Under the pieces are notes generated by a model, which ran no database searches, had not been told where the DNA came from, and saw nothing but the letters and a program-made list of their open reading frames with translations. DNA of 64,000 nt from Neochlamydia sp. S13 (GTDB lineage Bacteria > Chlamydiota > Chlamydiia > Chlamydiales > Parachlamydiaceae), in the NCBI RefSeq assembly GCF_000648235.2, contig NZ_AP017977.1, positions 1,550,001 to 1,614,000 on the forward strand. Reading direction: 5' to 3'. The translations under genes and the position numbers were made by a program. Shown one piece after another: positions 20,262-35,715 of the stretch (within the stretch, counting starts at the first letter, position 1; each line of letters starts with the position of its first letter).

Positions 20262-22847
20262 CTACAATGGAAAACGCTGCCTTATTTTTTCTGCAATATC
20301 TTTCAAAGGATTTTCCGCTAATTCAAGTTTGGTAAGCTGAAACAGTTGTCCTATTCCTGCAGGAAGGCTGGTGAGCTGGTTTTGATTTAAGTGAAGCACT
20401 TGCAGCTCAGAAAGCTGCCCGATTTCTGCAGGCAGACTGGTGAGCTGGTTTTGATTTAAGAGAAGATATTGCAGCTGAGACAACCGCCCTATCTCTGCAG
20501 GCAGACTGGTGAGCTGGTTTTCTCTTAAGTCAAGCGCTTGCAGCTCAGAAAGCTGCCCGATTTGTGCAGGCAGACTGGTGAGCTGGTTTTGATTTAATTC
20601 AAGCGTTTGCAGCTCAGACAGCAGCCCGATTTCTGCAGGCAGGCTGGTGAGCTGGTTTTGATTTAATTCAAGCGTTTGCAGCTCAGACAGCAGCCCGATT
20701 TCTACAGGCAGACTGGTGAGCTGGTTTTGGCTTGAATCAAGTTCTTGCAGCTGAGACAGCTGCCCGATTTCTACAGGCAGACTGGTGAGCTGGTTCTGAT
20801 TTAAGTAAAGCACTTGCAGCTCAGAAAGCTGCCCGATTTCTGCAGGCAGACTGGTGAGCTGGTTTTGGCTTGAATCAAGTTCTTGCAGCTGAGACAGCTG
20901 CCCGATTTCTGCAGGCAGAGCGGTGAGCTGGTTTTGATTTAAGTGAAGCTGTAGCAGATTAGACAGCTGCCCGATTTCTGTAGGCAGACTGGTGAGCTGG
21001 TTTTGGCTTGAATCAAGCTCTTTCAGCTGAGACAGCTGCCCGATTTCTACAGGCAGACTGGTGAGCTGGTTTTGATTTAAGTAAAGCACCCGCAGCCTAG
21101 GCATCAGCCAGATTTCTGCAGGCAGAGCGGCAAGCTGGTTTTGGCTTGAATCAAACATTTGCAGCCTAGACATCAGCCCGATTTCTGCAGGCAGAGCGGT
21201 GAGCTGGTTTTGATTTAAGTGAAGCTCTTGCAGCTGAGACAGCTGCCCAATTTCTGCAGGCAAACTGGTGAGCTGGTTTTGATTTAAGTTAAGCCATTCC
21301 AGCTGGGACAGCCGCCCAATTTCTGCGGGCAGAGCGGTGAGCTGGTTTTGATTTAAGTGAAGCCCTTGCAGCTGAGACAGCTGCCCGATTTCTGTAGGCA
21401 GAGCGGTGAGCTGGTTTTGATTTAAGTTAAGCTGTAGCAGATTAGACAGCTGCCTAATTTCTGCAGGCAGAGCGGTGAGCTGGTTTTGATTTAAGTTAAG
21501 CTGTAGCAGCTCAGGCAGCTGCCCTATTTCTGCAGGCAGAGCGGTGAGCTGGTTTTGATTTAAATCAAGCCATTGCAGCTGAGGCAGCCGTCCGATTTCT
21601 TCAGGCAGGCTGGTGAGCTGGTTTTGATTTAAGTAAAGATTTTGCAGCTTAGACAACTGCCCGATTTCCGTAGGCAGAGCAGTGAGCTGATTTTGATTTA
21701 AGTAAAGCACTCGTAGTTGAGACAGCTGCCCGATTTGTGCAGGCAGAGCGGTGAGCTGGTTTTGATTTAATTCAAGCGTTTGCAGCTTAGACAACTGCCC
21801 GATTTGTGCAGGCAGAGCGGTGAGCTGGTTTTGATTTAATTCAAGCGTTTGCAGCTTAGACAACTGCCCGATTTCTGCAGGCAGGCTGGTGAGCTGGTTT
21901 TGATTTAATTGAAGCCATTGCAGCTGAGGCAGCCGCCCGATCTCTGTAGGCAGGTTGTTGAGCTCGTTTTCTCTTAAGTCAAGAGTTTGTAGCTCAGACA
22001 ACTGCCCGATTTCTGCAGGCAGAGCGGTGAGCTGGTTTTGGCTTAACTGAAGTTCTTGCAGCTGAGACAATTGGCTTATTTCTGCAGGAAGACTGGTGAG
22101 CTGGTTTTGATTTAAGTTAAGCCATTCCAGCTGGGACAGCCGCCCAATTTCTGCAGGCAGAGCGGTGAGCTGGTTCTGATTTAAGTTAAGCCATTGCAGC
22201 TGGGACAGCCGCCCAATTTCTGCAGGCAGAGCGGTGAGCTGGTTTTGGCTTAAGTTAAGCTCTTGCAGCTGAGACAATCGGCCTATTTCGGGGGGTAAAT
22301 AAGTCAAGCCTACTCTAGATAAATCTAAATCCGTGATATTTTTACAATTTTCTTCAATCCAATCTCTAAGAAGCTCTCCTTTTTTTTGTAGAGGCAAGTG
22401 CTTAATTTCTTCTCGGCTCAAGTATTCTTCCCCACCAGGAAGTTTTTTCCAAAGTAAAAGGCGATTAATATTTAAGAGATAAGAAGAGTAATTAGCCAGC
22501 GTTAAGCCTCTTTTTTCTTCTGTTTTCCCTTTAAATTCCAAAGAAGAAATAGATTTAGCTAAGGTAAAAACTTGCTTAAAAGCTTGATAAACTTTTTCAG
22601 TAGAGGTAAGTCCAGGATTGAATTGATAAACTTTAGCTAGCATAAGAGTTCGCTGGGTAGTGGTATTCTTCGTGGGAAAATGAAACTGTGCTATTTTTTT
22701 ATAAAGAGAAGGCATCACTTCAGTAGCCAGCAGATGATGCCATCTTTTACAGACGCTAAATAAGGGAGGAACTACGCAAGCCTCTAAGATAGGGAGCAGC
22801 AATTCATTGGGCAAGCTTTCAATAGAAATCGATGAGATAGGATGCAT
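20262..22847 (-). CDS. F-box protein with 29 leucine-rich repeats
   Basis: An 861-residue protein. I chose the ATG at 22847 (MHPISSISIESLPNELL), which has AAGGAA just upstream, over an in-frame TTG 18 codons earlier. Residues ~8-60 form an F-box-like module (IESLPNELLLPILEAC ... VCKRWHHLL). A linker of ~115 residues follows, then 29 tandem 23-residue LRRs, the LPxEIGxL type with NQLTxLP cores, up to residue ~845. A short capping end follows (LELAENPLKDIAEKI). The LRR solenoid would recognise a target while the F-box could bind host Skp1, as proposed for LRR/F-box proteins of amoeba symbionts. There is no signal peptide, so type III secretion is assumed. The near-identity of the repeats implies recent expansion and likely length variation between strains. 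Confidence 0.9.
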   Translation of the reverse strand: MHPISSISIESLPNELLLPILEACVVPPLFSVCKRWHHLLATEVMPSLYKKIAQFHFPTKNTTTQRTLMLAKVYQFNPGLTSTEKVYQAFKQVFTLAKSISSLEFKGKTEEKRGLTLANYSSYLLNINRLLLWKKLPGGEEYLSREEIKHLPLQKKGELLRDWIEENCKNITDLDLSRVGLTYLPPEIGRLSQLQELNLSQNQLTALPAEIGRLSQLQWLNLNQNQLTALPAEIGRLSQLEWLNLNQNQLTSLPAEISQLSQLQELQLSQNQLTALPAEIGQLSELQTLDLRENELNNLPTEIGRLPQLQWLQLNQNQLTSLPAEIGQLSKLQTLELNQNQLTALPAQIGQLSKLQTLELNQNQLTALPAQIGQLSQLRVLYLNQNQLTALPTEIGQLSKLQNLYLNQNQLTSLPEEIGRLPQLQWLDLNQNQLTALPAEIGQLPELLQLNLNQNQLTALPAEIRQLSNLLQLNLNQNQLTALPTEIGQLSQLQGLHLNQNQLTALPAEIGRLSQLEWLNLNQNQLTSLPAEIGQLSQLQELHLNQNQLTALPAEIGLMSRLQMFDSSQNQLAALPAEIWLMPRLRVLYLNQNQLTSLPVEIGQLSQLKELDSSQNQLTSLPTEIGQLSNLLQLHLNQNQLTALPAEIGQLSQLQELDSSQNQLTSLPAEIGQLSELQVLYLNQNQLTSLPVEIGQLSQLQELDSSQNQLTSLPVEIGLLSELQTLELNQNQLTSLPAEIGLLSELQTLELNQNQLTSLPAQIGQLSELQALDLRENQLTSLPAEIGRLSQLQYLLLNQNQLTSLPAEIGQLSELQVLHLNQNQLTSLPAGIGQLFQLTKLELAENPLKDIAEKIRQRFPL

Positions 22848-23055
22848 TTTATTTCCTTGGGTAGTGACAAATTTTTCAGCATTTTTATTTTTTAAAGACA
22901 ATATAAAAAATTAAAAAGCAAGTCAAACGAATTCGTATCCTTATCAATGAAAAACAACTCACAGAGCCAAAAATTTGGCATATAGTTCTGCTTACTGGTA
23001 GCCTAATTTCCTAGAGCAAAAGTCTCCTCCAAGGCCTTGAATAACTTTTAAAGCA

Positions 23056-26404: not shown

Positions 26405-28417
26405 TTAACGGACGGGACAGGCACCTGTTGCACAAGCAGCTTCTAACTCTTCATCGCGCATTTCAATGCCTGAATAATCGATATCTTTCAACTTAGCCAC
26501 ATAGGTATCATAATTTTCCTTAGTGACCACTTCCTGCGGTAAATAAGCATATCCTAGGTCTTCGGCATTTTTTGTAGGATCATTACGAAATAAGAAGGAA
26601 ACTCCTACATAAGTATCCCAATTTTCTAACAGCCAGTCAATAATAGCAGGAACCTCGGAAGGATCGTAAGAGATAGTGTTGGAAACATTCTGCTCACACC
26701 AAGTTTCTTGTAAAAGCTTGTACCACTCGAGCTGATAAACAGCCGAATCAGTGTTTACCTCTACTTCTTCCACTTTACCATTCTTTCTGGTGACCATCAT
26801 CCGCGTAAACGAAATATTCTCAAATTTTACAGGAAATTTAACAAGTACAGATTCTGGCTCGTAAGGTTTTTCTACCACCGTATAACCTGCAGCTCGAAAA
26901 CGTCCCACTAAAGGATCATGCTTAGAATAAGTGATATTATTAAAAATATATTTTCCTAGCGGCAAATGCACTCCTTCTGGCACTTCCCCCCATTCTTCTG
27001 TTCCCATGATTTTGCTTAAGGTACCACTAGGTTTCACACAAGTGACGTTTTTAGGCAAAGGAGAATTGAGCTCATTAGCCATGCTATAAGCCGCACTTAC
27101 AGTGATATTACGCATACGCTTGTAATCATAGGCAGTCAGATCACTTCTTGCACGAATGCCTGTTAAGCCAACTCCACATAGGTGCAGAAAATCATTATTG
27201 AGATGCCAAGCTTCTTGAAGAATTTCATCTCTTAAGTTAACCATTGTTTGACGGTAGTTCATTCTACCGGCTAGATAAAGAGCTCTCTCTAAGCCAATTT
27301 TATCCCCTTTAAAAGCTAATACATTTACCTCGGTTAAGTTGCAAAAACTTTTATTACCTAGAAGAATTTCTACACAAGGATTACAGCCTTTAAACCAAGG
27401 TGCCCGTCTTTCAGCTTCCATGGCATTAATAAAACCAGGTTCGGATCCCCCCGAATCCATCATGAGTTGAAAAAGGCTTTCTAATTCTGCTTTGGTTGGT
27501 TTCTGGCGAAAAAGAAGGCTATTATTAGATTGCTGACGATGAGCATTCCCTTTAAGCCACCATTCTTTTTTTGCTACCGCAAACTCTTCCCATTCTGGTT
27601 GGGCATATTCAAATAGCGCTATCTGGGCTGAGCGGCGGCTAGAAAGAATGGTACCCAGCCAGTTGACGATATCTAAAATATCAATACGAGTCAGAAGCTG
27701 ATCAGCACGGTCGGATAAAATTTTAGCAATCGCTTTAAAAGCTTTAGCAATTTGCTCATCTCCAGATGAAATCCAGCCATACCCTTTAAGGCGTGTCCCT
27801 GCAGGTCGGATCTCAGAAAAATCAAGTACTAAAGTTCTAGCAGGATATTTACCTGCCACCAGTTTACCCACAGCTTTTGCCCAAGCAATCGCTGAATCCC
27901 CGACTTTAATTGTCCATGTCTTCGTTGCAGAATCATAAGTTTCTACATTATTCTGTTCGCCACCTTTGCCTGTTCGATTAGAACGAATCACCCGAATCTC
28001 TTGCAAAGGTCTACGAAAACCATTTAGAGTGCCAGTAATAGGCCTAAAGCCTACCCCGCAACCTTGTAACAAGAGCCAAAGCACATCGACGATATCATAG
28101 ACTGTTTCCACATGGGTATAAGAACAATTAAACATGCTAGACTCACGTTTACGGCTCAACTCCGTTCCACCCAACCATAAAGTTCTGCCGGCAGGTGCTA
28201 CTTGACGATTAAGAATAAGCCCGCGTAGCTCTTCCAATTCGTCATCCTCGCGATCACTCAGATTACGCCCTAAAGCTCTTTCCCACAGCCAGTGCTGATG
28301 GCTAATTACTCGTTCAACAACTTGATCCCAACTTTCTAGCAAAGTTTCTCCCTCATTAATAGGGCGATGATATGTTCTCAAAGCTGTGGCCATAGCCCTT
28401 GCTGTTGGTTTTGTCAT
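26405..28417 (-). CDS. nrdJ: Class II (adenosylcobalamin-dependent) ribonucleotide reductase
   Basis: Reduces ribonucleotides to deoxyribonucleotides with a B12-generated thiyl radical; monomeric RTPR-like type, cytoplasmic. I start at ATG 28417 (MTKPTARAM) because GGAAGGA lies 9 nt upstream; an ATG six codons earlier has no ribosome site. Seen in the 670 residues are PAGRTLWLGGTE near 76, SSMFNCSYTH with the first redox Cys near 96, LLQGCGVGFRP, GCNPCVEILL near 345 carrying the radical Cys and Glu, SFCNLTEVN with the second redox Cys, PSGTLSKIMG near 460, and the C-terminal redox pair CATGACPVR. Chlamydia uses class I NrdAB, so a B12-dependent enzyme is notable. Two NrdR-box-like sites lie upstream and a strong terminator follows. 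Confidence 0.9.
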   Translation of the reverse strand: MTKPTARAMATALRTYHRPINEGETLLESWDQVVERVISHQHWLWERALGRNLSDREDDELEELRGLILNRQVAPAGRTLWLGGTELSRKRESSMFNCSYTHVETVYDIVDVLWLLLQGCGVGFRPITGTLNGFRRPLQEIRVIRSNRTGKGGEQNNVETYDSATKTWTIKVGDSAIAWAKAVGKLVAGKYPARTLVLDFSEIRPAGTRLKGYGWISSGDEQIAKAFKAIAKILSDRADQLLTRIDILDIVNWLGTILSSRRSAQIALFEYAQPEWEEFAVAKKEWWLKGNAHRQQSNNSLLFRQKPTKAELESLFQLMMDSGGSEPGFINAMEAERRAPWFKGCNPCVEILLGNKSFCNLTEVNVLAFKGDKIGLERALYLAGRMNYRQTMVNLRDEILQEAWHLNNDFLHLCGVGLTGIRARSDLTAYDYKRMRNITVSAAYSMANELNSPLPKNVTCVKPSGTLSKIMGTEEWGEVPEGVHLPLGKYIFNNITYSKHDPLVGRFRAAGYTVVEKPYEPESVLVKFPVKFENISFTRMMVTRKNGKVEEVEVNTDSAVYQLEWYKLLQETWCEQNVSNTISYDPSEVPAIIDWLLENWDTYVGVSFLFRNDPTKNAEDLGYAYLPQEVVTKENYDTYVAKLKDIDYSGIEMRDEELEAACATGACPVR

Positions 28418-28478
28418 GATCTTTAATCCTTCCATAGATAAAATATTTTAAAGCTCTCTCTTTCTCTCTTTTCTAAAA

Positions 28479-28525
28479 ACACAAGATGTTGTGGTATAAA
28501 AGCAAAAAACCACTACTGCTTGTGT
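28479..28525. promoter_or_regulatory. Two NrdR-box-like sites upstream of nrdJ
   Basis: ACACAAGATGTTGTGG (28479-28494) and CCACTACTGCTTGTGT (28510-28525) resemble the NrdR box acaCwAtATaTwGtgt: 13 of 16 positions for the first, fewer for the second. The centres are 31 bp apart, the three-turn spacing typical of paired NrdR boxes. Together they also form a large hairpin (outer arms AAACACAAG / CTTGTGTTT, inner arms GTGGT / ACCAC). The rest of 28418-28725 shows no gene. Confidence 0.6.
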
Positions 28526-28725
28526 TTTTAAACGTCCAAGGTATCTCTCTTTTTGCCTTAAAAGTCAATATCGACTTTTTTTTTAAATCCTCCTTAGAAG
28601 AAAAGGGAAAAGAGCTTTTAAGTTGTTGATTCTAAAAGAGCTAAAACGGATTAAAAAAACCTTTTTTCAGTTACTTATAGCGTTAAGAATAAAGAGCTTA
28701 AGTTCAATAAAAATACTTTCCTTTT

Positions 28726-30270: not shown

Positions 30271-31089
30271 TTAAGGCCTTAAAAGGCGAATAGATTCTTG
30301 AGAAATGAAACCTATTAAATGATCGGGGGTTCGTATTTTTAACACCCTTCCCTGTTTTCCAGATTCCAACACCTCTACTTTACATCCTCCTCTTAAAGGC
30401 TGCAAAGTGACTAAAGCCGAGTTAAGATTTTTTTCTCCATATAAGTGGGTCGCATGAATCAAAACACCTTCTATAGGCTCCAAATATTGGCTATAAATGA
30501 TGCTACAAAAAAATAAGGCGTTTACAAGCACTACGCTACTCACCAGAAGTTTTAGCCCTACATAATTTTTCCATACCAATAAAGAGGCCAGGCTACATAA
30601 AAGAAAAGTAAAGACACATAAAATTTCTAGACGCTCGGGTAAAGAAAAATAAAAGTGAAAGAAAAAAAATTTTTTAAATGAAGAAGGTGACTGAGTAGGA
30701 GGGATCTTCAACTTAGCAAGCGTTTCTTTTAATTTAAACTCAACCTCAAGATCGCGTGGCCTTAAACGCTTAGCCTGATAGAAATAAAAAGCCGCCCAGG
30801 GATATTGCTCAAGATTATAATAGGTTTCGGCCAAGTTACTATACAGGGCACCATTGCCCTGCAGAGGGCAATAAAGCTTATCCAAAGAATGATAAATCAT
30901 CAGTAATCTGTTGAGGGCTTGGCGGCGATGAAAAAAATTGTTAGATTGCGCAGCTTCTTGATAGGCTGCACGCGCTTGCTCTAAGAGGGGTACGGAAGGA
31001 TTGGAAAAAGAAAAGATGAAAAAATTTAAGAGAGCATATCCCGCTGCTAGGCTTACCAAAACATACAAATAAACAGTTTTATTAACCAT
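30271..31089 (-). CDS. batE: BatE-like TPR/SH3 membrane protein
   Basis: Last gene of a Bat operon. The 272 residues contain an N-terminal membrane segment (~5-27), TPR-like helices (~35-125, ALYSNLAETYYNLEQYPWAA then FYFYQAKRLRPRDLEVE), two central membrane segments (~152-205) and a C-terminal bacterial SH3-like domain (~215-270, GCKVEVLESGKQGRVLKIRT). This TPR-membrane-SH3 order is that of BatE of Bacteroides-type aerotolerance operons. The start overlaps the end of batD by 8 bp, indicating translational coupling. It probably works with BatA, B and D in an envelope complex; the biochemical role of Bat proteins is not settled. Confidence 0.75.
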   Translation of the reverse strand: MVNKTVYLYVLVSLAAGYALLNFFIFSFSNPSVPLLEQARAAYQEAAQSNNFFHRRQALNRLLMIYHSLDKLYCPLQGNGALYSNLAETYYNLEQYPWAAFYFYQAKRLRPRDLEVEFKLKETLAKLKIPPTQSPSSFKKFFFFHFYFSLPERLEILCVFTFLLCSLASLLVWKNYVGLKLLVSSVVLVNALFFCSIIYSQYLEPIEGVLIHATHLYGEKNLNSALVTLQPLRGGCKVEVLESGKQGRVLKIRTPDHLIGFISQESIRLLRP

Positions 31090-32830
31090 ACTTAATCTCT
31101 TGGAGTTTTTTGTACAACCGCTGACATTCTTCTAAAGCTTGGAAATAGAGCTTTTCATCTGACCCTGCGCCACTATAACGCTGAAAATCTATAGACAACA
31201 GCAAAGCACGTACTTCGCCCGCAACCCCCTCCAAAGGCAGATCTACTCCTAGAGCTTCTTGGTGATTAATTAGGCCGCATTCAAATAATTGCTGGATTAA
31301 CAATCGATGAAGCAATTCAAAAAAGAGAGGAGAATTTTGAGGAGCCTTCAACATTTCTTTATATATGCATAGGCTCGTTTTCTTTTTTACTTTCCTTCCT
31401 TGAATTTTCCATGAGATTTGTAATTTATATTGCAGCCCTACTACACCTAAACTTAAAGGAATTAACCCTATTACCCACCAAGAACCCAAAATTTTATTCT
31501 TTAAATCTGCAAGTCCTAAAGATCGCATGGCATAAAAAGCTAAAGGAGGCAGAGGCTGATAGCTTTTTATCCATTCTGCTAACGTCTCCTGGCTTTGAAA
31601 GTTTATAGGGGGAGAAGAGACCCGATCAGTAGGTAAAATATGCTGGCTAGGAGAAATAGTAAGAGCAATAGGAGGGCTATGCAAAATTTTATATTTCTCG
31701 CTTTTAGGATCAAAATAAGAAAATTGAATAGAAGGTAGACTTTTAATATCTGTAGAGAGAGGATAAAGCTTTATCTCAAAATTTTTGCTATGATCTTCTT
31801 TTCTACCTACCGCAGGAAGGTCATTTTCTTTAAAAAGGCCACTAAAGCCTGGTTGGCAGCAAATTTCAGGAAGAGAAACGCTATCCCAATTCGAGGTTTT
31901 GCCTTTAATGCTTACCCTCACAAACACAGGATCTCCCTCGTTAAGGGTTGCCGCACTCAGTAAGTTTATATCCATCGTAAATTCTCCAAAAGCTCCATTA
32001 AAAGAAGCTGGCTGATCTTCTAATGGAAAAGGTTTTACGATTAGTTTAACAATGGGCGCCTGAGAGCTAAGATGAGTGGCTGTAAACTGTTTATTGCCTC
32101 TAGCATCTTCCACATATACCACTCCTTCGATCCTAGAAGGCCCCCAAGCATATTCTCCAGGTTTAATCGCTTGAACTTGCTGAGAAATTTCAAAAAAGCT
32201 TAAATCTTTTTCTGTCCAGGTGCGGATATCAGGACGGCCTACTTTCTGCAACCCTTCAGCTTCCAACATAGGCAATACTTCTTTTAAAAGAGCGATATTG
32301 CCTTTATATATATAGCGATAAACTAATTTTGTTTCTTGGCCTGGATATAATTCTTTAAGACCTTCGCTATAAGCCTGCAGTTGAAGAGTAGACTTAAGGT
32401 TTTCATCCGATGATACTAAAGGAGAGGCAAGAGGAGCTTGAATTTCATAAGTAATAGGCAAAGTTTTAAAGGTTTTCCCATCCACTTTTAAAGATAAAGA
32501 AGAAAGTGTGTAAGTTCCTTGATTTTGAGGAGGCAGAGTAAATTGATAAATACTGACGGTTAATGGACTGTCGGGAGAGATTTTTACACTTCGTAGCAAA
32601 TCAATCTTTAAAAATCGATCGTTTAAAAGGGCACTTGATTCCTCTACTTTCTGATCGCTATTATGCGTAACTTCTAATGTGCCTTTTAAGGGCCACCCTT
32701 GATGCAAAGTAGCTGGATCAAGAAAAGCACTTACAGAGATATTTGCTAAGACCGAAGATTGAATCAAGATAAACCCTAAAAAACCTAGAATCCACTTCAG
32801 TTCCAAACGATAAAAAAGAAAAGCTACCAT
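31082..32830 (-). CDS. batD: BatD/oxygen-tolerance protein
   Basis: A 582-residue envelope protein with an N-terminal signal or membrane segment (~12-30, WILGFLGFILIQSSVLANIS). Periplasmic beta-sandwich domains follow, with BatD-type features such as SVSAFLDPATLHQGWPLKGT, YPGQETKLVYRYIYKG (~165) and LNEGDPVFVRVSIKG (~290). A single membrane segment at ~440-465 (SWWVIGLIPLSLGVVGL) is followed by a cytoplasmic helical tail. BatD proteins (DUF7507-like repeats) partner the VWA proteins BatA and BatB. Its ATG overlaps the batB/C stop by 7 bp, and batE overlaps its own end, so all four genes are translationally coupled. Confidence 0.8.
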   Translation of the reverse strand: MVAFLFYRLELKWILGFLGFILIQSSVLANISVSAFLDPATLHQGWPLKGTLEVTHNSDQKVEESSALLNDRFLKIDLLRSVKISPDSPLTVSIYQFTLPPQNQGTYTLSSLSLKVDGKTFKTLPITYEIQAPLASPLVSSDENLKSTLQLQAYSEGLKELYPGQETKLVYRYIYKGNIALLKEVLPMLEAEGLQKVGRPDIRTWTEKDLSFFEISQQVQAIKPGEYAWGPSRIEGVVYVEDARGNKQFTATHLSSQAPIVKLIVKPFPLEDQPASFNGAFGEFTMDINLLSAATLNEGDPVFVRVSIKGKTSNWDSVSLPEICCQPGFSGLFKENDLPAVGRKEDHSKNFEIKLYPLSTDIKSLPSIQFSYFDPKSEKYKILHSPPIALTISPSQHILPTDRVSSPPINFQSQETLAEWIKSYQPLPPLAFYAMRSLGLADLKNKILGSWWVIGLIPLSLGVVGLQYKLQISWKIQGRKVKKKTSLCIYKEMLKAPQNSPLFFELLHRLLIQQLFECGLINHQEALGVDLPLEGVAGEVRALLLSIDFQRYSGAGSDEKLYFQALEECQRLYKKLQEIKYG

Positions 32831-35715
32831 GGCTTTAAACCTTCTTTGATGAGAGCAGGTTGAGAAGGCAATGGTTGATCTTGCGTATTCATCTGCTGGA
32901 TCAAACGTGCCATCTCTTCAAAAGATGATTGAAAAAGCTGAAGAGATGAAGTTTGTAAAGTGGATTCCATAAAGCACTTACCTGTTTTATTAGGTTCTTT
33001 CATCTTTGTGAGGGCCTCTTGCCAGATATCCAACACTTTTTCCTGAGCCTTCACAAGCCTAGGTAAATCTAACGACGAAGCTTGAACAAGGTCTACGATT
33101 TTTTTAGCCAGCCTATTTCCTTGCTGAAATAAAGGAAACACTTCGTTCCAGGGAGAAAATTGACAACGTTCTTCCCTCCCCGCTGCGGAAGCTCTGGCAT
33201 TAAACTTTGCAAGTTGCTGGGCATAGGCAGCTTGATGAAAATAGGAGGAAAATGTTAGCAAATATTCCTGGGAGGAAAGAATAAATAAATCTGCCTCACG
33301 CGTAGTTTGAGCTTGGCTTTCTTGCAAACGAGCGAGAAGTCTTGCCTGAGCTAATGCATGCCTCTGTTCGCCTATAGCAGCTTCAAGGACTAGATCTGGA
33401 CGAACATGAATATCTGCATGAAGAATTAAAAGCACACGCCTTAACTGCTGAAAAGATTCATTAAAATACAATTGAGCTTTTAAATCTTGCAAAAGTTGAA
33501 GCTGGTCAAAACTAGCCTGTAAATTATTTTCGATCGCCTCCATACCAGCTTTAAGCCTCTCATGTTCTGAGGGCAAGGCAATCCTATCCAGTTTTTGCTT
33601 TAAGAAAAGCAGCGTATTAAATTCTAAAGGATCTTGTAAAGCGGCTAGTGAAAAATCATTTAAAAGACTGGCTATATTCTCTTGAAAAGAATCTTGCGCA
33701 AAAAGAAGATGCATAAAATGCTCTAGCCCCTCCATTGCTATTTCTAGGCTAGCTTCAGCGGCAGTAAAATCGCTCTTTGAAATTAAGGGAGCTATCTTAT
33801 TAAAATGTTTGGCAGCTCTTTCCAATAAGAAAAAATTTTTATCTCTCTGTAGTTGAATGGTAAGTGCTTTCCATAGCGGAAGCCAACTCATTACATGCCT
33901 GTTAAAAAGATCTCGATATTTATTTTCTAAAGAAGCTGTCAGAGGGTTTTCCAACAAAAAATTAAGATCTTGCTTGAGCAGCTGCAATCCTGTTGCTAAC
34001 CAAGGAAGACTTTGTGGGGGTGCTGCCTGCACCATAAGATTCTCTCTAGCTTTTTCGCGTATGTCTACCATAACCATTTTGGAAAGAGTAGCTGCTCGGC
34101 CTAAAGGATAAACCTTTTGACACGCATCTTGCCCGCTAACTTTTAATAGTTGACATTCAGCTTCTTGAACTAAAGGAATTTTTTCTAGAAAACGTTTAAA
34201 AAAGTAAAGCGCTTTAAAATAAGAATCTTGAAGAGGTGACGAAAAAGTCTGCGAAACTTGGCTTAACCTCTCCCCCTGATAGAAGTTAGCAAGAGCAAGA
34301 TTTCTAAGGACGCGATACCTTAATAAAGGCGCGCTAGTCTTGTCCCTCGATAAAGCCTGCAATATCTCGATAGCTTCCTCTTGCTTTCCTTGTGCCGCCA
34401 AAGCAGTCCCTAAATTATAGGTCACCACACTTTTTTCCCATGCAGATAGATCTTCTGCTAGCATTTTCTGATAGATATTGGCTGCTTCAACATAATTTTT
34501 AGCTGAAAAATAATCGGCTCCCCGTTGCATCGACTCCTGCAGATTTTCCATAGCAGTAAGTTTGCTTAAGAAAAAAAAGCAGATGAATAAGAGGGCTGAA
34601 AATTTATTTAAACGAAAAGAAGAAGATGAAGAAAGAGTAGTATCGGGCCATAATAGGTAAAAAGCCAACAAGAGGATAGCTAAACTTAAAGGAAGCTGGT
34701 AATAGGAATCATACTTTAAATCTTCTTCAACATTTAAGGCTTGCCTTGCATCACTAAGAGAAAAAGTATCCACTTTAGAAATTTGAGCAGCAAGATCCTC
34801 TGCGATAGCAGTAGCAGGAAAAGCATAGCCTGCGTAATAGCGTCCCTCCCCTTTTTCACTTAAAGCTTTCAAAATATCTTCGTTTAGATGGGAAATGATT
34901 CTTTGGTTTTTATTCATTACATGAGGAATTTCTAGACCTTCCAATGTGCCTACACCAATCGTATGAATATGTGTTTTTGGCAGAGAACCTAATAAAGCCT
35001 CTAGCTCCTTGATATAATTTAGACGAGCTCTTCCCTCTAACTCTTCCAGGCGATTATCGCCACCATCAGAAATGATAATAATAGTTTTGATAGAAGAGGT
35101 TGAAGATGTTAGATAATGTTCATGCAGATAGCGAAGCATATCTTTTAGATCAGTTCCACTTACATCACCTTCATTAATCGTTAAATGATGTAGCATGAGC
35201 CGCATAAAGAGGTAATCCATAGAAGGCGGAGATAGCTTGGTCACCTCTGAAGTAAACCCATAAAGCGATGCTGACTGCCCTTGTAGGCGGCTTATTACCT
35301 GATCAGCAATATTCTTAGCATTCTCTAAACGACTTTCGCCTAGTCGTCCATCTAATAGGCTCATCGACGCAGAAGCGTCGATCAAAAAAACAACTTCATG
35401 AGGTTGCATACGCTTAACGTCATGCGTTTGTTGAAGGTGTTCTATCGCCTCTTGAGAATAATGGGGATGGCCTTTAGGCTGCATTAAAGCTAAGCAAAGG
35501 AACATCCAAGCTCCACATACTGCCGCTACCTTTAAGCCCCAGCTAAGCTTAGACTGGGCCATTAATACATAGGGCAGTTTGTCTTTACTCGTATAATGAG
35601 CAAAGATTTTTAGACGGTGGCAATAAAGCCTCCAAAATAATAAGAAAAATAGGACAATAAAAAATAGTAAATAGCTTGCTTGGGGAAAAGTATAATAAAG
35701 CCCCTGAAAGTTCAT
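32824..35715 (-). CDS. BatB-BatC fusion (VWA domain plus TPR region)
   Basis: I start at ATG 35715 (MNFQGLYYTF), which overlaps the batA stop as ATGA and has GAAGG upstream; a longer frame begins 15 codons earlier. The 963 residues contain two N-terminal membrane segments (~10-30 and ~60-80) and a von Willebrand A domain (~105-310) with an intact MIDAS start FLIDASASMS and IIIISDGGDN. Then come membrane segments (~335-385) and TPRs (~395-480, GADYFSAKNYVEAANIYQKM then VVTYNLGTALAAQGKQEEAI). A long helical region of ~480 residues follows that is unusual for BatC. In most bacteria BatB and BatC are separate; here they are one chain, extended at the C-terminus. Confidence 0.8.
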   Translation of the reverse strand: MNFQGLYYTFPQASYLLFFIVLFFLLFWRLYCHRLKIFAHYTSKDKLPYVLMAQSKLSWGLKVAAVCGAWMFLCLALMQPKGHPHYSQEAIEHLQQTHDVKRMQPHEVVFLIDASASMSLLDGRLGESRLENAKNIADQVISRLQGQSASLYGFTSEVTKLSPPSMDYLFMRLMLHHLTINEGDVSGTDLKDMLRYLHEHYLTSSTSSIKTIIIISDGGDNRLEELEGRARLNYIKELEALLGSLPKTHIHTIGVGTLEGLEIPHVMNKNQRIISHLNEDILKALSEKGEGRYYAGYAFPATAIAEDLAAQISKVDTFSLSDARQALNVEEDLKYDSYYQLPLSLAILLLAFYLLWPDTTLSSSSSFRLNKFSALLFICFFFLSKLTAMENLQESMQRGADYFSAKNYVEAANIYQKMLAEDLSAWEKSVVTYNLGTALAAQGKQEEAIEILQALSRDKTSAPLLRYRVLRNLALANFYQGERLSQVSQTFSSPLQDSYFKALYFFKRFLEKIPLVQEAECQLLKVSGQDACQKVYPLGRAATLSKMVMVDIREKARENLMVQAAPPQSLPWLATGLQLLKQDLNFLLENPLTASLENKYRDLFNRHVMSWLPLWKALTIQLQRDKNFFLLERAAKHFNKIAPLISKSDFTAAEASLEIAMEGLEHFMHLLFAQDSFQENIASLLNDFSLAALQDPLEFNTLLFLKQKLDRIALPSEHERLKAGMEAIENNLQASFDQLQLLQDLKAQLYFNESFQQLRRVLLILHADIHVRPDLVLEAAIGEQRHALAQARLLARLQESQAQTTREADLFILSSQEYLLTFSSYFHQAAYAQQLAKFNARASAAGREERCQFSPWNEVFPLFQQGNRLAKKIVDLVQASSLDLPRLVKAQEKVLDIWQEALTKMKEPNKTGKCFMESTLQTSSLQLFQSSFEEMARLIQQMNTQDQPLPSQPALIKEGLKPW

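Follow-up and report, generated by a model that had tools for sequence, protein, structure and literature searches.

The two 16-bp sequences lying upstream of nrdJ, the class II ribonucleotide reductase (RNR) gene of Neochlamydia sp. S13, are quite probably an NrdR operator that is placed just downstream of the nrdJ promoter and would read the level of dNTPs, cobalamin being read at another locus by a riboswitch in front of the class I genes nrdBA. Control would be split between the two enzymes, the B12-independent one responding to B12 by way of a riboswitch and the B12-dependent one to dATP/ATP by way of NrdR. Repression of nrdJ by NrdR is very likely because of the geometry of the box pair, its distribution, its retention in genomes with nrdR and its loss with the promoter kept. 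The sequences, gene content, conservation and co-loss described below were observed directly, in the window, i.e. the whole stretch of 64,000 nucleotides analysed here (NZ_AP017977.1, positions 1,550,001 to 1,614,000), in the whole genome and in related genomes. The features concerned are collected in Table 1.

The product of nrdJ scores 841.7 bits against TIGR02505 (RTPR; equivalog cutoff 340), its sole sequence relative in the PDB is the ribonucleoside triphosphate reductase 1L1L, and no ATP-cone was detected in it with Pfam. The longest open reading frame reaches 28435, six codons beyond M7, but comparison with orthologues makes M7 at 28417 the most likely start codon, because the six-codon extension carries a stop in the closest relative (G031). 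Scanning the nrdJ leader for consensus promoters gave no match, since the −10 element is poor; the putative promoter was called from conservation, as nearly all nrdJ carriers have a promoter-like element (TTGACTTT...GATA) some 40 bp upstream of the first box. This would put the boxes at roughly +9 to +55 in the predicted nrdJ transcript.

Table 1. Features of the nrdJ region (window positions) and of the nrdBA leader (genome positions).
Feature	Position	Strand	Remarks
nrdJ, class II monomeric adenosylcobalamin-dependent ribonucleoside-triphosphate reductase	26405..28417	minus	670 aa from M7; TIGR02505 RTPR
Inverted repeat/hairpin over both boxes	28474..28530	minus	22-nt arms, 86% complementary
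NrdR box 2, CCACAACATCTTGTGT	28494-28479	minus	gene-proximal; 13/16 to consensus; C4 and G13 kept; conserved in 32 orthologous upstream regions
Box spacer, 15-bp	28495..28509	minus	canonical range 15-16 bp (PMC12051234)
NrdR box 1, ACACAAGCAGTAGTGG	28525-28510	minus	promoter-proximal; 11/16 to consensus (weak match); C4 and G13 kept
Putative nrdJ promoter, TTGACT-17-GATACC	28540..28568	minus	called from conservation among orthologues
Cobalamin riboswitch RF00174 (outside window)	G000:C1:294557-294744 (L083:1058-1245)	same as nrdB	covariance-model match 1-189 of 189

An initial annotation had placed two NrdR-box-like sequences, with centres exactly 31 bp apart, upstream of a B12-dependent RNR, and this was confirmed on the minus strand, where 62 bp separate the pair from the likely nrdJ start codon. 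An integer number of helix turns between box centres favours NrdR binding (PMC12051234), and at nrdJ the centres are about three turns apart with a gap that falls within the 15-16 bp of NrdR operators. Taken singly and scored against the consensus ACACWATATATWGTGT, the boxes are unremarkable, with two matches at three or fewer mismatches in the window versus 0.69 expected by chance. The pair was scanned for with the pattern ACAAN4TTGT-N19-ACAAN4TTGT, to which the nrdJ site has one mismatch; it is the sole match in the window (0.04 expected at two or fewer mismatches) and the best pair in the 2.82-Mb genome, where no second place has one mismatch or fewer. A search of the same genome for a second NrdR target gave just one match with two mismatches (C2:164670), and the reversed control gave more (four). 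The centre distance is 31 or 32 bp in 32/32 upstream regions of nrdJ orthologues, across which C4 and G13 are invariant in both boxes.

The genome encodes one NrdR (G000:C1:318552-318986; 151 bits against a TIGR00244 cutoff of 124.65), 1.26 Mb distant from nrdJ. The protein comprises a Zn ribbon and an ATP-cone and keeps D15, R17 and R26-29 (RRRR), the residues that contact the box in the Streptomyces coelicolor NrdR structure (PMC9110341). Nine exact box pairs were found among 68 genomes of the order; each of the nine immediately precedes nrdJ, and the reversed control gave none. When the survey was extended with a relaxed pair pattern to 234 Chlamydiia genomes, 65 of the 77 pairs listed were upstream of nrdJ (27) or nrdA (38). 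The nrdA pairs were located 1.14-1.36 kb ahead of the conserved NrdA match, which, once the N-terminal extension of NrdA is allowed for, puts them immediately in front of the gene; the other 12 pairs listed belong mostly to fragmented assemblies or to genomes without a listed nrdA position.

The presence of the pair at nrdJ follows that of the repressor gene. Ten of the 43 nrdJ carriers among the 234 genomes have no detectable nrdR, and where the nrdJ upstream region is readable the pair occurs in 31/32 genomes with nrdR versus 1/9 without it (Fisher p = 8e-7, a value that overstates independence in related genomes, the losses spanning at least three families). In four genomes (G010, G059, G098, G120) both nrdR and the boxes are absent and the nrdJ promoter element is retained, which suggests that, once the repressor is gone, the operator erodes while the promoter persists. 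Operator loss that tracks repressor loss amounts to a clean natural test of an NrdR operator. The two exceptions come from draft genomes: boxes occur in G035, where nrdR was not detected, and are absent from G099, which does have nrdR and whose NrdJ is only 65% identical. Closer to home, the pair at nrdJ is kept in 3/3 other members of the genus examined and in most of the family. The proposal of the initial annotation that a class II RNR is under probable NrdR control is thus strengthened by an nrdR with box-reading residues, by a conserved pair and by loss of the pair with nrdR; nrdR is present in the genome, and close relatives have not lost the boxes.

Class I genes are also present, nrdB (C1:294970) being followed by nrdA (C1:296345), so that nrdJ is not the sole RNR. 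The cobalamin riboswitch ahead of nrdB scores 111.2 bits (gathering threshold 31.5), ends 183 nt before the gene and is itself preceded by a promoter with a good consensus match (TTGACA-16-TATATT); no intrinsic terminator was found in this leader, the fold of which is ambiguous. No cobalamin riboswitch was found on nrdJ or elsewhere in the 64-kb window. NrdA has its own ATP-cone, and NrdB carries a tyrosine, Y113 in ENIHSETY, at the apparent radical position. In this it differs from the class I enzyme of Chlamydia trachomatis, which belongs to class Ic.

Across the class, the riboswitch was detected in 30/43 nrdJ carriers versus 2/191 other genomes (p = 2e-25, again overstating independence among related genomes), and its position or the reading frame places it ahead of class I genes in the great majority of class I-bearing nrdJ carriers. 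It is found on deeply separate class I lineages, a short nrdBA type and a long nrdAB type, and the pair in G101, G103 and G114 is probably a third such lineage. The loci concerned (L164, L165, L173) hold a non-orthologous nrdB-nrdA behind the same kind of riboswitch, and their NrdB reads ESIHMDSL where that of Neochlamydia sp. S13 reads ENIHSETY, the tyrosine at the radical position appearing to be replaced by leucine. Genomes with nrdJ and nrdA but without the riboswitch are G018, G123, G013 and G099 (G050 is unreadable). When the threshold was relaxed to E ≤ 0.1, no weak riboswitch was seen either in these four or in nrdJ-less genomes with the same nrdBA type (G028, G100, G111-G113), and the search of both sets gave nothing but an implausible microRNA match. 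Among nrdJ-less chlamydiae, NrdR boxes are often found at nrdA and, with one exception, the riboswitch is absent there; in genus g11, which we take to be Chlamydia, neither nrdJ nor a cobalamin riboswitch was found. As a separate observation, G018, G123 and G013 carry nrdJ and class I nrdA with nrdR, NrdR boxes and riboswitch all absent, an apparent loss of both controls.

A PduO-type adenosyltransferase (210 bits) is encoded in the genome and tracks nrdJ, being found in 16/19 genomes with nrdJ versus 1/49 others; the genome search that the initial annotation had proposed therefore recovered nrdR, class I genes (nrdBA) and an adenosylation gene. According to a published reconstruction, the chlamydial ancestor was no longer able to make cobalamin and probably depended on taking it up (PMC9816063). 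A further kind of gene is found behind the riboswitch in several relatives (L158-L163, L167, L174, in G066, G119, G126, G124, G098, G033, G108 and G118), where it stands roughly 40-200 nt upstream of a gene for a protein of 590-690 aa, an arrangement probably shared by L168 and L169 (G116, G120). This protein, which is not a known B12 gene product, resembles ClpA/TssH-like AAA ATPases, a similarity that for the G124 copy comes from NCBIfam alone, Pfam giving no family; it also has apparent membrane segments. In several nrdJ genomes in which no class I RNR was found, its gene is the sole riboswitch target seen.

From this distribution we lean slightly towards an exchange of regulators in those Chlamydiae that have a class II RNR: the class I genes would have lost their NrdR boxes and come to carry a cobalamin riboswitch, on at least two and probably three unrelated class I enzymes, and NrdR would have become dedicated to nrdJ. 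The outcome would be a circuit with two inputs, B12 acting on class I and dATP on class II, in bacteria whose set of transcription factors is very small. NrdR could instead control both nrdJ and nrdBA, the latter through sites so degenerate that they escape our scans, giving an overlap as in Streptomyces. Such scans do miss weak sites, as there is no pattern pair at nrdA in genus g11 despite reported NrdR control (Case 2011, as cited in PMC12051234), but the best pair at nrdBA of Neochlamydia sp. S13 matches 12/16 core positions, which is chance level, and none of the nrdJ carriers listed has a pair at nrdA. This makes the overlap improbable in our view.

With NrdR acting on nrdJ alone, we infer how its binding, its ligand responses, repression and the resulting switch would operate. 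When dATP is plentiful, NrdR loaded with dATP/ATP would bind both boxes as a tetramer on one DNA face, bend the DNA and block nrdJ transcription; given boxes at about +9 to +55, the block would fall at initiation or early elongation. When dNTPs run short, NrdR would release the operator. With no ATP-cone detected in it, NrdJ would lack control of its activity by such a domain; NrdR, itself an ATP-cone bearer, may provide the dATP feedback at the nrdJ promoter. In the presence of adenosylcobalamin, the riboswitch would shut off class I nrdBA, leaving NrdJ to supply dNTPs under NrdR feedback; in its absence, NrdJ would be without cofactor and nrdBA would be expressed, with NrdA limiting itself via its ATP-cone.

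The initial annotation had gone further and cast NrdR itself as the cobalamin switch, by which expression of nrdJ would depend on the B12 that the amoeba supplies. The boxes do sit on the B12-dependent enzyme, and if B12 ran short, dNTPs would fall and nrdJ would be derepressed indirectly. However, NrdR is a sensor of dATP/ATP (PMC9110341), the same type of NrdR operator is found on class I nrdA in many nrdJ-less chlamydiae, and the dedicated cobalamin riboswitch (RF00174) lies on nrdBA, with none on nrdJ. We regard this role for NrdR as very improbable and assign the sensing of cobalamin to the riboswitch.

Both boxes together can also form a hairpin, the symmetry of which the initial annotation had considered possibly coincidental. 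The hairpin is real (fold z = −2.7), but any two copies of one palindrome necessarily pair with each other, and complementarity between box 1 and box 2 in the 32 orthologues is barely higher within genomes (11.62 of 16) than in between-genome pairings (11.09 of 16), that in the variable box centre not being significant and the flanks showing none. It would be a by-product of two palindromic boxes, conserved no further than the boxes themselves. That the repeat works as RNA, a 5′-leader hairpin steering nrdJ translation or stability with an incidental likeness to NrdR boxes, is scarcely credible despite its long arms and stable fold in the predicted nrdJ leader, as the element vanishes along with nrdR.

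An NrdR operator on nrdJ combined with a riboswitch on nrdBA has its closest counterpart in Streptomyces. In S. coelicolor, class II nrdJ likewise stands under two NrdR boxes, the centres of which in the nrdRJ operator are 31 bp apart (PMC9110341), with the same invariant C and G positions, and Streptomyces class I nrdABS is under a cobalamin riboswitch, the B12-independent enzyme serving as a backup (Borovok 2006, as cited in PMC5962746). The two systems differ in that Streptomyces NrdR binds both operons, whereas here the scans found boxes at nrdJ and not on the class I operon, and in that Streptomyces nrdR is cotranscribed with nrdJ, whereas here the genes are far apart. Within the phylum, the C. 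trachomatis repressor CT406 belongs to the orthologous NrdR family and uses the same type of operator, but what it is reported to control is nrdAB, of class I (Case 2011, as cited), rather than nrdJ. Pseudomonas aeruginosa also has several RNR classes, including class II, and its NrdR has been studied (PMC4409342, PMC9110341); the B12 response of its nrd genes is independent of a riboswitch (PMC5962746), unlike that proposed here. For the amoeba-associated Waddlia chondrophila a ChIP-seq-derived NrdR motif is given in an article whose main text names no nrd target (PMC4989314). Parachlamydia acanthamoebae is reported there to be without NrdR (PMC4989314), which fits the NrdR-less nrdJ carriers found here. 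Although both control parts are thus known from Streptomyces, we found no paper in the open-access literature on their exclusive split or on its occurrence in chlamydiae, nor any description there of the riboswitch, or of nrdJ under NrdR, for Chlamydiae.

Few regulators are known in Chlamydiae, and the arrangement proposed here would allow a sequence-based prediction of the choice made by an obligate intracellular bacterium between B12-dependent and oxygen/metal-dependent synthesis of DNA precursors, one of the sensors being RNA and the other protein, with no overlap between them. The B12 status of the host could decide which RNR serves during infection of the amoeba. We also would like to mention three other features of the window. 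A large protein encoded at 20262-22901 (minus strand) appears by eye to combine an F-box-like N-terminus with a long array of leucine-rich repeats that are nearly identical, and is a candidate for the host-directed proteins that amoeba-associated chlamydiae may have. A run of genes at 30271-36845 (minus strand), encoding von Willebrand A-like and TPR-like proteins, resembles by eye a Bat aerotolerance operon. Near the window end, at 63594-63669 (minus strand), there is a match to a group II intron domain (RF00029, 47.5 bits).
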